64,000 bases of DNA, from positions 1,674,001 through 1,738,000 of the forward strand of contig NZ_AP017560.1 of the NCBI RefSeq assembly GCF_003967015.1. The letters run 5' to 3'. How positions within the stretch are numbered: position 1 is the stretch's first letter; each line of letters opens with the position of its first letter. A program made the position numbers and the translations under genes. Below, one piece after another: positions 28,459-34,295 of this stretch. Below the pieces are notes generated by a model. It made no database searches and had not been told where the DNA came from. It saw only the letters and a program-made list of their open reading frames with translations. This DNA is from Pseudanabaena sp. ABRG5-3. GTDB taxonomy: Bacteria; Cyanobacteriota; Cyanobacteriia; Pseudanabaenales; Pseudanabaenaceae.

Positions 28459-28887
28459 TTAGCCAGCACAGCCTCTTAAAATTACGCCGATAATTATGCC
28501 GATGCCGACAAAACGAACGACTTGCCAAAAAGATTCATGTAAACTGCTCCATGAGATCAGCCGACTTTCTAGATCCGCTTCGATTTGTTCGAGGCGATCG
28601 CTAATTTGCTGAAGTTGTTGCTGTAGAGATTCTTGCAGAGGATTTGCTAGCGACTTTCCAGTACTTGAGTTCGGCTTGCGGCGAATTTTGGAATTCTTAT
28701 TTTTCCGAGGGCGATCGCCAGCAATTTCTTGAATTTGCGATCTAATTTGTTCCTGTTGTGCTTGGAGTTCATGCTTTTCGTGCAGGTCGCGACGAACTTG
28801 ATGCAAGCGTTGCTCGATTTCTTCTAAGGATTCTCTAGTTTCTTGGAGTTGAGTTTCAAGATCGCTCCAATCAGAAATTTCTGTCAC
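28459..28887 (-). CDS. Coiled-coil protein with C-terminal membrane anchor
   Basis: The frame is open from 29055, but the upstream part covers the kinase stop and a hairpin, so the start is taken as the GTG at 28887, giving 142 aa (VTEISDWSDLETQLQETRES); an ATG at 28992 is an alternative. The protein is a long coiled coil rich in Glu, Gln and Arg, broken by a basic segment (RPRKNKNSKIRRKPNSS), then a second coiled coil and a hydrophobic tail VVRFVGIGIIIGVILRGCAG, which predicts a tail anchor. I do not recognise the family. It follows the Ser/Thr kinase gene on the same strand and may belong to its operon. Confidence 0.6.
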   Translation of the reverse strand: MTEISDWSDLETQLQETRESLEEIEQRLHQVRRDLHEKHELQAQQEQIRSQIQEIAGDRPRKNKNSKIRRKPNSSTGKSLANPLQESLQQQLQQISDRLEQIEADLESRLISWSSLHESFWQVVRFVGIGIIIGVILRGCAG

Positions 28888-28989
28888 AACATCAATGTAG
28901 TAAATGGCAAGTAAAGAGTAAAGGCTTGAGGTAATACCTTTAATAACTTGAATTTTACAGTGATTCGCACTCTGGATTATAGGGATTTT

Positions 28990-29010
28990 CATTTTGTCGT
29001 AGACAAAATG
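28990..29010 (-). terminator. Short hairpin after the Ser/Thr kinase gene
   Basis: Nine-base arms CATTTTGTC and GACAAAATG around the loop GTA, 5 bases after the kinase stop codon on the minus strand. It is AT-rich and has no long U-tract, so it is at most a weak or partial terminator. Confidence 0.4.
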
Positions 29011-29015
29011 ATCTT

Positions 29016-30656
29016 CTAGAGACATATTGGCTTGGTGCGATTGGCAGCAACCCAACCTTCTATTGGTGTAGAAATTTGTAACCAGCCTTGTTTTTCAACC
29101 TTAACCGTGATTTGTGTCCCATTATCGAGAGTCCCCACGATCGCATAGTCTTTGCCTGCACCTGTGCGGACATTAATGGGTGGATTTGGGTCGGAAATTA
29201 TGCGTTTACTATAGTCACACTTCGCTTCTTGGAGATTATTAGAGCTAGGATTTGATAAGTTTACATTTCGACTGTTACGAGCTTGAAAATCACGAATATA
29301 TGCAACATTCTTGATCTCAATCGGTGTTAGGAGATCTTCAGGAAATTGGTTGGGTTGGTATGTGGGGTTATACCAAGGTTGTTTACTAAAATAAGCCTGC
29401 AATTCAGGATCTTGAAAGCGACGACCATATCTCGCAAACACTTCATTACGCATGATGTCTAGCTCAAATGCACTCTTATTGATCAAATCCTGATCAGCAA
29501 TCTCCCGTTCCGACAAAAATAAATATTGGGGACTAGGGGAAATGGCACTGATATTGACTTCACTTTTTGGGGCAGGTGATGGACGGAAGAATATAACCGC
29601 CCCCGTAGCCATAATTCCTGATACTAAAGCGATCGCCCCAATTCCTAGCCAATTTTTGGGCTTGGATGGCAAATGATCTCTGGGGGCAATGGTTGGTGTC
29701 ACCTCATCGCTAAACCTCGCGATCGCCGTTAAATCTTGAGTATTTGTTGAAGTACTGCTTTGAATAGGGTTAGATAGAATGGTTGGTGCGATTGGTATAT
29801 ACAAATTTTGGATATCTGCTAATGCTTCAGATGCAGACTGGTAGCGATCGCGAAAGTCATACTTTACGAGTTTATTGATTACTCGTGCCAACTCATCACT
29901 AATCTGGGTACGATATTTTGTCGTCGCATGGGTGGGAGATTGTCGCCATGCTAGTTCACCTGTCTCCATGTCTTCTGACAATAAACTGGGGGGAACTCCT
30001 GTCAAACCTTGGATCGCAATTACCCCCACGGCATAGAGATCGCTACAGGGACGGGGCTTGCCGATCGCTTGCTCGTTGGGCATATAGCCATCAGTGCCAA
30101 TCGCCACCGTCGAAGCGATTACCGTTGCCGTCTCCACTTGTTTGACTGCCCCAAAATCAATCAGAACTAATTTGCCATCGGAGCGCCGCCGCATTAAGTT
30201 CGCAGGTTTAATATCACGATGGATAGCTCCCTGTTGATGTACAAAAACTAAAATTTCTAGTACATCTAATAAAAAAGCGATCGCCTGTGCTTCATTCATT
30301 CGCCCCACAGGATAACCATCTTCCGAGCGTTCTGTGGCGATTAATTCATTGGTCAGTTCATAACCATCAATTAACTCTTGAACTAGATAAAATTCATGGG
30401 CTTCTTCAAAATGAGCCAGCAATCGCGGAATACGATCATGACTGCCTAACTTGTGTAGAATTCGCGCTTCTGCCTCAAAAAGACGACTCGCAATTTGCAA
30501 GATATTGGCATCGCTAGTTGCAGGTTTTAAGCGTTTGACTACACATTTGGGATGATCGGGTAGTTGCAGGTCTTTCGCTAAAAATGTTTGTCCAAACCCT
30601 CCACTGCCAAGGTTTTGGATGATTTGATATCGCTGACTAATTACAGTATCAATCAT
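29016..30656 (-). CDS. Serine/threonine protein kinase with YARHG and SH3 domains
   Basis: The start is the ATG at 30656 (546 aa, MIDTVISQRYQIIQNLGSGG). The kinase domain (about 10-285) has the Gly-rich loop LGSGGFG, Lys41, the catalytic loop HRDIKPAN (146-153) and DFG (167-169), so it is active by sequence. One membrane helix follows at about 337-357. The extracytoplasmic part has a YARHG domain (about 380-455; DIMRNEVFARYGRRFQDPEL) and a bacterial SH3 domain (about 475-540; NVRTGAGKDYAIVGTLDNGT), which may bind the cell wall. It lies 84 bases downstream of the GAF protein gene and upstream of the coiled-coil gene, all on the minus strand. Confidence 0.92.
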   Translation of the reverse strand: MIDTVISQRYQIIQNLGSGGFGQTFLAKDLQLPDHPKCVVKRLKPATSDANILQIASRLFEAEARILHKLGSHDRIPRLLAHFEEAHEFYLVQELIDGYELTNELIATERSEDGYPVGRMNEAQAIAFLLDVLEILVFVHQQGAIHRDIKPANLMRRRSDGKLVLIDFGAVKQVETATVIASTVAIGTDGYMPNEQAIGKPRPCSDLYAVGVIAIQGLTGVPPSLLSEDMETGELAWRQSPTHATTKYRTQISDELARVINKLVKYDFRDRYQSASEALADIQNLYIPIAPTILSNPIQSSTSTNTQDLTAIARFSDEVTPTIAPRDHLPSKPKNWLGIGAIALVSGIMATGAVIFFRPSPAPKSEVNISAISPSPQYLFLSEREIADQDLINKSAFELDIMRNEVFARYGRRFQDPELQAYFSKQPWYNPTYQPNQFPEDLLTPIEIKNVAYIRDFQARNSRNVNLSNPSSNNLQEAKCDYSKRIISDPNPPINVRTGAGKDYAIVGTLDNGTQITVKVEKQGWLQISTPIEGWVAANRTKPICL

Positions 30657-30740: not shown

Positions 30741-33425
30741 CTAAACATAGCGAGATCGCTCGATCCTTAATGCTTCAGTAGCCCTTTGAGCTTCGATCGC
30801 TACCTGTGATAGGCAAGCATAAATTAACACCACATAATTAGCTCTCACCGCCGATTCAAGCTGGCGACATTGATAGGATAGGGGCAATGCACCGATATAG
30901 TCACTACTTGAGCGCAATGTATTCAATATTTGCAATAGGCGTGGATGATCATTGATGGCGATTGCCTTGTCAATGGCTTGTACTAGCTTTGGAGTTTCTT
31001 CTAAATAGCTATCAATTACATTTAACAAGAAATTGATGCCCTTACTGTCATTACCTGCGATCGCTAAAATCGTTTCCATAAATTGCGGTTCTATGGCAGG
31101 GTCGCGCTCCTCGTCGTAAATATCAGGTCTTGAGGTTTCTAAATCCGCTTGAGAAAGTTTCTCTTGATCTGATGGAGCTAACTCTTCTAGTCTCTCATCT
31201 ACATCTTTTATTTCTTCCTTCTCCTGTCCTATTGTTAGAGTGCTAATTTCCACTTCAGATGTTGATTCATTTCCATGTTCTGTATTATTTTCGGCAATAT
31301 TTTTTGTAATCGATTCTTGCTCAATATTTTCTGTTGTCTCCATTGCAAGAGATTCGGTCGCTTCTAGTTCCGTAGATAAGGAAGTTGTGGTCTCTACAAT
31401 TTCTCCTGCCTCATCTTCAGACTCCGATTCAATTTCTGAGGTGATTGGTTCCTGATCAGGTTGGGCTAAGCCATCTGATGTTGCGGCAATCTCAGAATTT
31501 GCGTCTGACTTAGCCTGATCTTCACTACTACTTGTCTCGCATGGCTCTGTTGCGAGTGCCTCTTCCTCAGAGTCATCTACCTTAATACTTTCTACATCCA
31601 AGGCCTTTGGTGCGACTAGAGCTTCTAGAGCCAATGGTTCTAGGTCTGAGACCTCTGCAATTAGTCTTGATTCGTTAGTGATTGGGTCCAATCGCTCTGG
31701 GGCGATCGTTTCTTGTTGATTCGTCTCTATCTCAACATTTGCAGGAGATGGTAAATCTAGGATTTCTGGCTCAACTATTTTCTCTGCGTCAAGACTCTTG
31801 ATCTTAAAAGTTTCTAAAACTTCAGATTCCTTCTCACTTACTTCTTCAGATTTAACAATGGTTGTCTCTTCTTCAGATTGCGGTTCAGGCTCATCTACAG
31901 CTTCAGACTGGTTAACAATTATCTCTTCGCGTTGAGACTCCTCTGCCTCAGACTCAGATATGTTTTCTACTTTAGTAGTAGTCTCTTCAGGTTCATTTAC
32001 TTCTTTTGCCTCGTTAACAATTACCTCTTCAGGTTCATTTATTTCTTTGATCTCATGAACAATTACCTCTTCAGTCTCAACTTTTCCGAATTCTAATGCA
32101 CTTTCAGCTATTTGAGTCTCTTCTGTATCAGTGCTATTAGTAGTATTCTCTTGAACAATCTCCAAACATTCTTCATCTCTAGTTAACTCTTCTGCATCAA
32201 CTGGATGAGAAATGATCGTTGCCTGCTCATCTGTATTTGCAGTTTCTTCTTCTGGTTCAATATCTTCAGAATCTTCAGGTTCTCCAGAGTCCTCATTTGA
32301 TGATGGTTTGATATCCTGAATCAAAAATAAGCGTGGCAGACCATTCTGAGATATTGCAATATATTCAGAATCGATAATCTCATCTTCATCAACAATGTCT
32401 TCTACGTCTTCGATATCTTCGTCTGATTCACCAATCTCTTCGTCCAAATCTTGATCTACTAGATGTTCTACTGGGCTAATAGGCTCAATATGATCTTCTA
32501 CTTCTAAATCTTTCTGATCATCATCCTCTAAATCATCACTGTTGTTCTCCATCTCTTCTGTCGTTACATCTTGGGAAAACATCGTGATGAGTGGTTCATC
32601 TATATCTGAGATTAAAGAACTTGGCGCTTCAGTAATTAGCGGTTGAGTTTCACTCTCGATAATTTCGGCAACTGTTTTTTGTAAACTATCTAGTTCAACT
32701 TTTAGCGTTTGCAAATCTTCGGCTAAGGTTTGAGACTGTTGCCGTAGATTGGCTAAGGAGATGGCAATCCCAATCTGAGCGGCAACTAGGGACAGAGAAG
32801 TGCGATCGCTTTCTGACCAAACATGATAAGCAGTCCCATGAAAAGCAACTAATGTCCCCCATGCGTCATGTCCTGCATAAATTTTGTTCGCGGTATAGGA
32901 AGATATGCCAATCTGTTCAAGCAGTGTGACGATATGCGAAGATAAGCTCGAACTACGGATACTGTCAACGATTTGGGCAGATTGTTCTGTTTGCATAGAA
33001 TCAATCATATGCCGCGCTAATAGAAGCTGTCTTTCGGGCATATCCGCAATAGACACCATCCCTGATGCGATCGCATCAGTAACAAACTCACCACGCCCAT
33101 CGGGATAACGACGAAAAATGGCGACTCGATCAACTTGGAGGAGTTTCTGTGCAACTTGGACAGCTACCTGTAAAACTAGCTCTAAGGATGGCGATCGCTG
33201 AATGGCATCGGCAAGCTGGGCGAGTGCTTTTTCTCTAGCAATAATATTGCTAAAAGCATTGGTGGTCTCCGTCTCCGTATCTGGCACGGACATGAGCTTT
33301 TTGTATCGTTCTTCCCAGCTCAGTTGATGAACACGTTCCTGCTGCACCAAAATTGCTTTGAGGCGTTCATAGGCAGCGCGATCGCGGCATAGGTGGCGAA
33401 TTTGATCTAAGAGGGTAGAATCCAT
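30741..33425 (-). CDS. GAF-domain protein with long acidic linker and degenerate HPt domain
   Basis: The 894-aa protein starts with a helical segment and a GAF domain (about 70-225; LELVLQVAVQVAQKLLQVDR, IYAGHDAWGTLVAFHG), like the phytochrome-related GAFs of cyanobacteria but with no chromophore Cys obvious. Then come some 480 residues that are extremely rich in Glu, Asp, Ser and Thr, with degenerate repeats such as VIVNEAKEVNEPEE. The C-terminus (about 775-875) aligns with an HPt domain (LNTLRSSSDYIGALPLSYQC then RQLESAVRA), but the phospho-acceptor His of the AHTLKGSS motif is Asn835. It should therefore not accept phosphate. The gene precedes the Ser/Thr kinase gene, which suggests that it is a substrate or scaffold. 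The overall function is unknown. Confidence 0.75.
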   Translation of the reverse strand: MDSTLLDQIRHLCRDRAAYERLKAILVQQERVHQLSWEERYKKLMSVPDTETETTNAFSNIIAREKALAQLADAIQRSPSLELVLQVAVQVAQKLLQVDRVAIFRRYPDGRGEFVTDAIASGMVSIADMPERQLLLARHMIDSMQTEQSAQIVDSIRSSSLSSHIVTLLEQIGISSYTANKIYAGHDAWGTLVAFHGTAYHVWSESDRTSLSLVAAQIGIAISLANLRQQSQTLAEDLQTLKVELDSLQKTVAEIIESETQPLITEAPSSLISDIDEPLITMFSQDVTTEEMENNSDDLEDDDQKDLEVEDHIEPISPVEHLVDQDLDEEIGESDEDIEDVEDIVDEDEIIDSEYIAISQNGLPRLFLIQDIKPSSNEDSGEPEDSEDIEPEEETANTDEQATIISHPVDAEELTRDEECLEIVQENTTNSTDTEETQIAESALEFGKVETEEVIVHEIKEINEPEEVIVNEAKEVNEPEETTTKVENISESEAEESQREEIIVNQSEAVDEPEPQSEEETTIVKSEEVSEKESEVLETFKIKSLDAEKIVEPEILDLPSPANVEIETNQQETIAPERLDPITNESRLIAEVSDLEPLALEALVAPKALDVESIKVDDSEEEALATEPCETSSSEDQAKSDANSEIAATSDGLAQPDQEPITSEIESESEDEAGEIVETTTSLSTELEATESLAMETTENIEQESITKNIAENNTEHGNESTSEVEISTLTIGQEKEEIKDVDERLEELAPSDQEKLSQADLETSRPDIYDEERDPAIEPQFMETILAIAGNDSKGINFLLNVIDSYLEETPKLVQAIDKAIAINDHPRLLQILNTLRSSSDYIGALPLSYQCRQLESAVRANYVVLIYACLSQVAIEAQRATEALRIERSRYV

Positions 33426-33659
33426 GTTTGCAAACGACTATCCTCGATAGTATTCCAGCATTTTCTAGATAAGGTCAGATAGTTGTTACCTAACCTAGAC
33501 AATGGATTTTAACTAACTTGATTTCGCGATCGCATGAGACACAAAGCGTAACTTTAGATCGGATTTTGTTTTTGCCGTAAGGCTTGTCTATGCGAGTTTT
33601 GACTGTAAAAACAAGTTAAGATCGTATTTTGTTTGCAAATCGACTTTAAGTTAAAAAAT

Positions 33660-34295
33660 ATGGTGCGCTATACGCTTGCCCAGAGTCCTGAAGTTGTCTT
33701 GACCGTTGCTGGCAAAGATTCGCCAAAAGCACGCGACAAGGCAATGGCAGAACTGATTGAATTAATGGACTCAGGCAAACTCGATACCGATCTTGCCGAT
33801 GGCTTTAGTCCCGACCAATTTATCGAAGTGAGAGAACTTTCCATGTCTGAAGATCGTGAAGATCCCATTACCCAAGCGGTACAAATCCTCAATAATCTCG
33901 CAACCCTCAAAATCAAAGTTCAAGAATTACGATCTGATGCAATGCAGGTGCGATCGCAAATTGACATTTTGTTTAGCGATGAAATCGTATCTGAGGAACA
34001 AATCAATAGTATTAAGGAAGGTTTTAAAACCCTCAAAAACTTTGCTCAGCTTAATATGAAGTTTCTCGATGCGCGATCGCAAGCTGAAAATGCCCGTCAA
34101 GTTCTCGATGAAGCGCTCAAGTCTCCCAACTCTGAAGCTAAAGCTCCCGAAATTGTGGCTGAAGTTCCTGCACCTGTAGAAAGTGAGACTAATGCTAATG
34201 AAACTGATGACACGGAAGTTACTAGTGAGTCTGTGACAGAAGTTGAAAATGCGATCGTGGAAGTGCCTGTAAGCAAATCCACCAAGAAAAAATAA
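33660..34295 (+). CDS. Conserved cyanobacterial hypothetical protein
   Basis: The ATG at 33660 begins VRYTLAQSPEVVLTVAGKDS; the frame open nine codons earlier is not supported. The 211-aa protein has an N-terminal alpha/beta part (KARDKAMAELIELMDSGKLD, FSPDQFIEVREL), a central coiled coil (LNNLATLKIKVQELRSDAMQ) and an acidic, Ala/Glu/Val-rich low-complexity tail ending in KSTKKK. No signal peptide or membrane helix is seen. The N-terminal domain looks conserved in filamentous cyanobacteria but I know no function. It is monocistronic and followed by a strong terminator. Confidence 0.65.
   Translation: MVRYTLAQSPEVVLTVAGKDSPKARDKAMAELIELMDSGKLDTDLADGFSPDQFIEVRELSMSEDREDPITQAVQILNNLATLKIKVQELRSDAMQVRSQIDILFSDEIVSEEQINSIKEGFKTLKNFAQLNMKFLDARSQAENARQVLDEALKSPNSEAKAPEIVAEVPAPVESETNANETDDTEVTSESVTEVENAIVEVPVSKSTKKK

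Follow-up and report, generated by a model that had tools for sequence, protein, structure and literature searches.

A histidine-less HPt domain at the end of a tethered GAF protein, kept nearly throughout the genus Pseudanabaena

The locus and the layout of the GAF protein

The window analysed here is a stretch of 64,000 nucleotides from the 5.66 Mb genome of Pseudanabaena sp. ABRG5-3, and coordinates refer to it unless the genome is named. It contains a minus-strand gene for a protein with a GAF domain, a long acidic tether and a C-terminal domain that we call the pseudo-HPt. The gene is followed on the same strand by a Ser/Thr kinase gene. The features are:

30741–33425, minus strand: the whole gene, an open reading frame with an ATG start encoding an 894-residue protein
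30741–33425, minus strand: layout from N to C terminus of helices, GAF domain, long helix, acidic tether and pseudo-HPt
33261–33425, minus strand: N-terminal conserved segment (residues 1–55), predicted helical, with many invariant columns
32760–33185, minus strand: GAF domain (residues 81–222), Pfam 46.8 bits against a cut-off of 22.4
31110–32660, minus strand: acidic Ser/Thr-rich tether (residues 256–772), identified by composition, poorly conserved, dN/dS 0.33–0.72
30747–31088, minus strand: pseudo-HPt domain (residues 780–893), from Pfam, AlphaFold2, fold matches and dN/dS of 0.02–0.20
30921–30923, minus strand: codon AAT for Asn835, at the place of the phospho-histidine
30762–30887, minus strand: helices D and E (residues 847–888), marked by a contrast in conservation and by conserved hydrophobic residues
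29016–30683, minus strand: the next gene, a Ser/Thr kinase with Pkinase, YARHG and SH3_3 domains (Pfam)

The GAF assignment rests on Pfam, because the model of residues 1–270 is poor (pLDDT 56.5); the helices of residues 1–55 appear in this low-confidence model. Bilin-binding GAF domains, as in phytochromes and CBCRs, are defined by a conserved chromophore-binding cysteine. The GAF region of this protein (residues 60–235) has no cysteine, and the orthologues have either one (15 of 25) or none (10 of 25), and nothing therefore points to covalent bilin attachment.

The tether varies between 187 and 517 residues in the 24 orthologues that have it. Within this variable sequence lies a conserved island, I-S-x-N-x-x-P-x-L-x-L (residues 358–368, window positions 32322–32354), in which single positions are the same in 17–20 of 24 orthologues; 11 of the 24 contain the string NGLP. 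The island could be a short binding motif.

Two further genes lie nearby. A plus-strand gene at 33633–34295 encodes a 220-residue protein with no Pfam match above cut-off and no NCBIfam match, and is oriented divergently from the GAF gene at 20 of 22 further loci in the genus. Homologues occur in 49 of 77 genomes overall, including 24 of 51 cyanobacterial genomes outside the genus, so the adjacency says little and we set this product aside as a candidate partner. Beside the kinase, the minus-strand gene at 28459–29055 encodes a coiled-coil protein of the NCBIfam sll0565 family (93.4 bits, cut-off 50) with a strongly hydrophobic C terminus.

An HPt domain without its histidine

The earlier note on this DNA held that the protein ends in an HPt domain, and the profile search and structure prediction that it proposed bear this out, returning an HPt-type helical bundle and not another fold. 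Residues 804–875 match the Pfam Hpt family (PF01627) with 36.2 bits against a cut-off of 24.6 (38.6 bits in the whole-genome search), and the Pfam search finds no second HPt match in the 894-residue protein. AlphaFold2, supplied with an alignment of 19 sequences (18 orthologues), predicts five helices for residues 770–894 with pLDDT 91.7 and pTM 0.84; in the numbering of the model these span residues 11–21, 25–54, 58–75, 78–92 and 96–122. Among the best 26 Foldseek rows, four of which have E ≤ 0.001, 25 are HPt proteins or entries (Ypd1, AHP, HptB, the BarA HPt and others) and the remaining one, 4euk_B, is titled merely 'Crystal structure'. The best VIA-align match is HptB (7c1i; Z 16.2, rmsd 1.9 Å over 115 residues, 17% identical).

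The best-aligned unrelated row reaches Z 11.5, and helical bundles may score higher still by chance, which raises the alternative that the domain is not an HPt but a four-helix bundle carrying a chance motif. We regard this as extremely improbable. The Pfam score is above cut-off, the orthologue profile matches three solved HPts by sequence, and the 24 top aligned rows (Z 12.2–16.2), all HPt entries save for the uninformative title of 4euk_B, exceed the unrelated rows. The predicted model and its fold matches thus give a four-helix bundle of HPt topology, and on this modelling the C terminus of the GAF protein is an HPt fold.

The segment LNTLRSSSDYIGA begins at residue 834, which puts Asn835 at the motif position normally held by the phospho-accepting histidine. 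Orthologues of the GAF protein are present in 25 of the 26 genus genomes searched, and 24 of the 26 encode the pseudo-HPt domain. An orthologue is missing from G016, whose genome is 76% complete. The orthologue in G010 (Pseudanabaena sp. ULC068bin1) stops at residue 292, with neither tether nor HPt; its GAF part survives as a 292-residue protein (L046 5443–6321, L086 8001–8876). In the 24 domain-bearing orthologues the phospho-histidine position is Asn in 23 and Ser in one, and never His, which upholds the earlier reading of Asn835 in place of the histidine. The basic residue at +3 is retained as Arg in all 24. The +4 residue is small (Ser in 17, Ala in 5, Thr in one) in every copy but one, which has Leu; one study gives Gly for about 87% and Ser for about 10% of HPts at this position (PMC6341664). 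The domain has no other conserved histidine, and 5 of the 24 orthologous domains have no histidine at all, which rules out a substitute elsewhere in the domain.

Selection on the domain was assessed from dN/dS in nine orthologue pairs, for which 16 of the 24 sequences were used. A near-identical pair yields no value for the domain, and the eight informative pairs, in one of which dS is saturated, give 0.02–0.20 for the domain, 0.05–0.14 for GAF and 0.33–0.72 for the tether. Constraint on the pseudo-HPt is about as strong as that on the GAF domain.

These data bear on whether Asn835 is a mutation of this strain or the mark of a decaying domain. The truncated orthologue of G010, reduced to its GAF part, is what decay would predict. 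Against this stand 24 orthologues that lack the histidine and dN/dS values that show the domain to be under strong purifying selection. The alignment of orthologues at position 835, which the earlier note had named as a check, excludes a strain mutation, and we reject mutation and decay together as exceedingly unlikely. Because the histidine is lost genus-wide, purifying selection acts on the domain and no other histidine is conserved, the pseudo-HPt is a maintained, His-less HPt domain: an HPt fold in which the histidine is replaced and conserved as such.

Comparison with histidine-bearing HPt domains

The other Pfam Hpt matches in the same genome keep the histidine in 15 of 15 cases. One of these (L045, genome positions 2414296–2414517) has the histidine but carries Ile, not Lys, at +3, and is possibly another degenerate HPt by its sequence.

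By profile, the HPt that scores best after the pseudo-HPt itself belongs, in 24 of the 26 genus genomes, to a hybrid kinase, about 1190 residues long in most genomes, with its HPt at genome positions 3109432–3109686 in ABRG5-3. Unlike the pseudo-HPt, this paralogue has His in 24 of 24 copies, Lys at +3 in 23 of 24, and many helix E positions where charged residues predominate. At two loci (L144 and L145) the hybrid-kinase HPt stands alone in a short open frame of 127 and 150 residues, respectively, adjoining an open reading frame that, read by eye, resembles a receiver protein.

Outside the genus, the six best-scoring relatives all have the histidine, and the order- and class-level profile searches found no His-bearing orthologue among the matches listed. 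The whole-protein profile was run against 38 genomes of the order, 26 of which belong to the genus, and the outside matches listed cover the GAF or the HPt part only. With the domain profile in 338 genomes of the class, scoring at most 12 candidates per genome, the 24 genus copies reach 184–245 bits and the next match listed reaches 69.8.

After removal of two identical rows and one duplicate, 67 of 70 rows entered an HPt tree, in which the pseudo-HPts cluster together with support of 100/99 and the hybrid-kinase family also groups cleanly. The tree has few columns and long branches, and the sister of the pseudo-HPts comes out unplaced. Descent from the hybrid-kinase HPt was considered, but the tree does not make that domain the sister. 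Since the pseudo-HPts are a single group, the simplest reading of the tree would be that one loss of the histidine preceded the diversification of the genus.

With the active paralogue as control, the two domains can be compared helix by helix in the 23 genomes that share them. Mean pairwise identity is lower in the pseudo-HPt than in the hybrid-kinase HPt for helix B (0.73 versus 0.85) and helix C (0.66 versus 0.76), and higher for helix D (0.81 versus 0.73) and helix E (0.85 versus 0.72). The contrast of D/E against B/C is 0.22 (P = 0.0004 by permutation over positions) in a comparison with a single control family whose positions are not independent; taken singly, helices C and D have bootstrap intervals that span zero. 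The 14 positions that correspond to receiver contacts of HptB, mapped by ungapped profile alignment, show an identity of 0.62 in the pseudo-HPt and 0.77 in the paralogue, a result below that of 98.6% of randomly drawn sets. The HptB contacts come from a docking model and not a solved complex, and 14 of its 15 residues were used (PMC7467158). Constraint has moved from the receiver-contacting helices B and C to helices D and E.

Between the families, mean BLOSUM62 scores are 2.0 for helix B, 1.4 for C, 1.7 for D and about 0 for E. Helix E has thus changed most between families, although it is the most uniform within the genus. Relative to the paralogue, 11 positions of the pseudo-HPt have gained hydrophobic residues (824, 847, 851, 864, 866, 867, 869, 871, 877, 888 and 893), nine of which (847, 851, 864, 866, 867, 869, 871, 877 and 888) are on helices D and E, with 864 just before E. 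Four of them, V866, L867, Y869 and I877, are kept in 23–24 of 24 copies and align with mostly Glu or Asp in the paralogue. Identity across the hydrophobic strip as a whole is 0.88 versus 0.54, a comparison biased by the choice of positions after the table had been seen. Eight positions have lost hydrophobic residues (819, 827, 829, 852, 870, 879, 882 and 891), which could mean that the helix has turned or repacked. Helix E is also uncertain in register: the unshifted alignment scores best overall, but the first half prefers a shift of 4 and the second, slightly, one of −2. Because of this register and the eight losses, the claim that the new helix E hydrophobics are exposed is a weak one; they may sit on the surface, and we do not advance the strip as a firm surface feature.

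Possible functions of the pseudo-HPt

Because the histidine is Asn, or once Ser, in all genus copies, the domain cannot take phosphate in the usual way. The reading we favour, tentatively and at a little under even confidence, is that the pseudo-HPt is a protein-binding module that works mainly through helices D and E and is not a relay step. The gene product would then be a sensor-adaptor in which the GAF domain, flanked by long helices and probably dimeric, is joined via the tether to an HPt fold retained for binding a partner without phosphate. The D/E side, proposed as the working side because it is the most constrained within the genus and helix E the most changed from the paralogue, would probably be the main working surface, and could homodimerise or hold a non-receiver partner. 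The fast-evolving tether would allow the GAF and binding modules to act at a distance, and the GAF domain, or kinase action on the tether, may gate the binding module.

An evolutionary form of this proposal is that an ancestral HPt of the genus gave up its phosphorelay role and became a binding module for partners other than receivers, its histidine gone, its receiver face relaxed and its helix E rebuilt. We consider this a serious possibility that falls short of probable. With equal reserve, we suggest that helix E then became fixed as a new binding face, carried on a disordered tether by a GAF sensor whose gene often has a Ser/Thr kinase gene beside it.

The main rival, which takes up the receiver docking suggested in the earlier note, is a decoy that, by analogy with the plant protein AHP6, would dock a receiver through helices B and C without accepting phosphate and so compete with an active HPt or hold a response regulator at the GAF protein. 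We judge this somewhat less likely than the favoured binding module, but a serious possibility. It is kept as the main rival because helices B and C still resemble those of the active paralogue, because Arg838 and Glu857 are invariant in the pseudo-HPts, and because AHP6 offers a precedent. The likeness of B and C, to which D may be added (the BLOSUM62 scores above), is its best point, and the fold is intact in the AlphaFold2 model. The loosening of helices B and C and of the receiver-contact positions relative to the paralogue tells against it.

AHP6/APHP1 of Arabidopsis has Asn for the phospho-histidine, the same change as in the pseudo-HPt, and is described as unable to join the phosphorelay and as a possible competitor of active AHPs for their kinases, although in the same source AHP6 is reported not to interact with one kinase, CKI1 (PMC7402358). 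Unlike this plant HPt protein, the Pseudanabaena domain is C-terminal, behind a GAF domain and a long tether, and its receiver-contact positions are loosened. FimL of Pseudomonas aeruginosa is a bacterial HPt-like protein without a phospho-histidine that is reported to help to recruit the receiver protein PilG and to keep it at the poles (PMC3019171, PMC10519157). It differs in having two HPt-like regions with Gln for His and in its homology to the N terminus of ChpA, and the descriptions of it used here mention no GAF domain or tether. Variants of Ypd1 at +4 are reported to lose transfer while binding drops modestly, which also favours the decoy, but they retain their histidine, unlike the pseudo-HPt (PMC6341664). 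HptB, the closest structural match, differs in the presence of His57, Lys60 and Gly61 (PMC7467158) and in its low sequence identity.

A third reading places control in the tether: the neighbouring Ser/Thr kinase would phosphorylate it at many sites, and the resulting charge switch would gate the pseudo-HPt. Its starting points are two remarks in the earlier note, that the gene directly precedes a kinase gene and that the tether offers very many phosphorylation sites. The adjacency stands in the window, where the kinase gene lies directly downstream on the same strand, 57 bp off, and recurs in 16 of 22 informative genus loci, the window included (two further loci, which end too soon downstream, are left out of this count). 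The gap, which assumes the predicted kinase start of the window, is 19–93 bp in 14 of these loci and 134 and 311 bp in the other two. The adjacency is not general: in 6 of the 22 loci the kinase was not found in the 2.8–8.0 kb downstream, and there the domain is retained. G010, without the domain, is also without the kinase in the stretch examined.

As the note had described it, the tether is acidic and rich in Ser and Thr: residues 256–772 are 32% D+E and 17.6% S+T, compared with 12.1% and 12.4% in six neighbouring proteins. The S+T content is slightly higher with the kinase than without it (16 versus 6 loci; Mann–Whitney P = 0.02, with relatedness ignored), which weakly supports a link between tether and kinase. 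Against kinase control, in addition to the loci that keep the domain where the kinase was not found and a statistical test that ignores relatedness, the sequence and length of the tether are poorly conserved. We consider control by the kinase unlikely; it can be combined with either the binding-module or the decoy reading.

Pseudo-HPts were already known. As far as full-text searches tell, what is new is the GAF–tether–pseudo-HPt architecture, the retention of this architecture nearly throughout the genus, and the altered distribution of constraint; in one of these searches Pseudanabaena does not appear among the best matches listed. According to the source, at least one census, in handling its hypothetical and partial proteins, excluded those that lack the conserved histidine (PMC4558063).

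Dead signalling domains that retain their fold are known; a 2025 paper, for example, deals with pseudo-receivers. In Pseudanabaena, a nearly genus-wide pseudo-HPt is under measurable selection, and the same cells contain an active paralogue that can serve as a control. This combination of selection, spread across the genus and an active paralogue makes the question of receiver decoy or repurposed fold directly testable.
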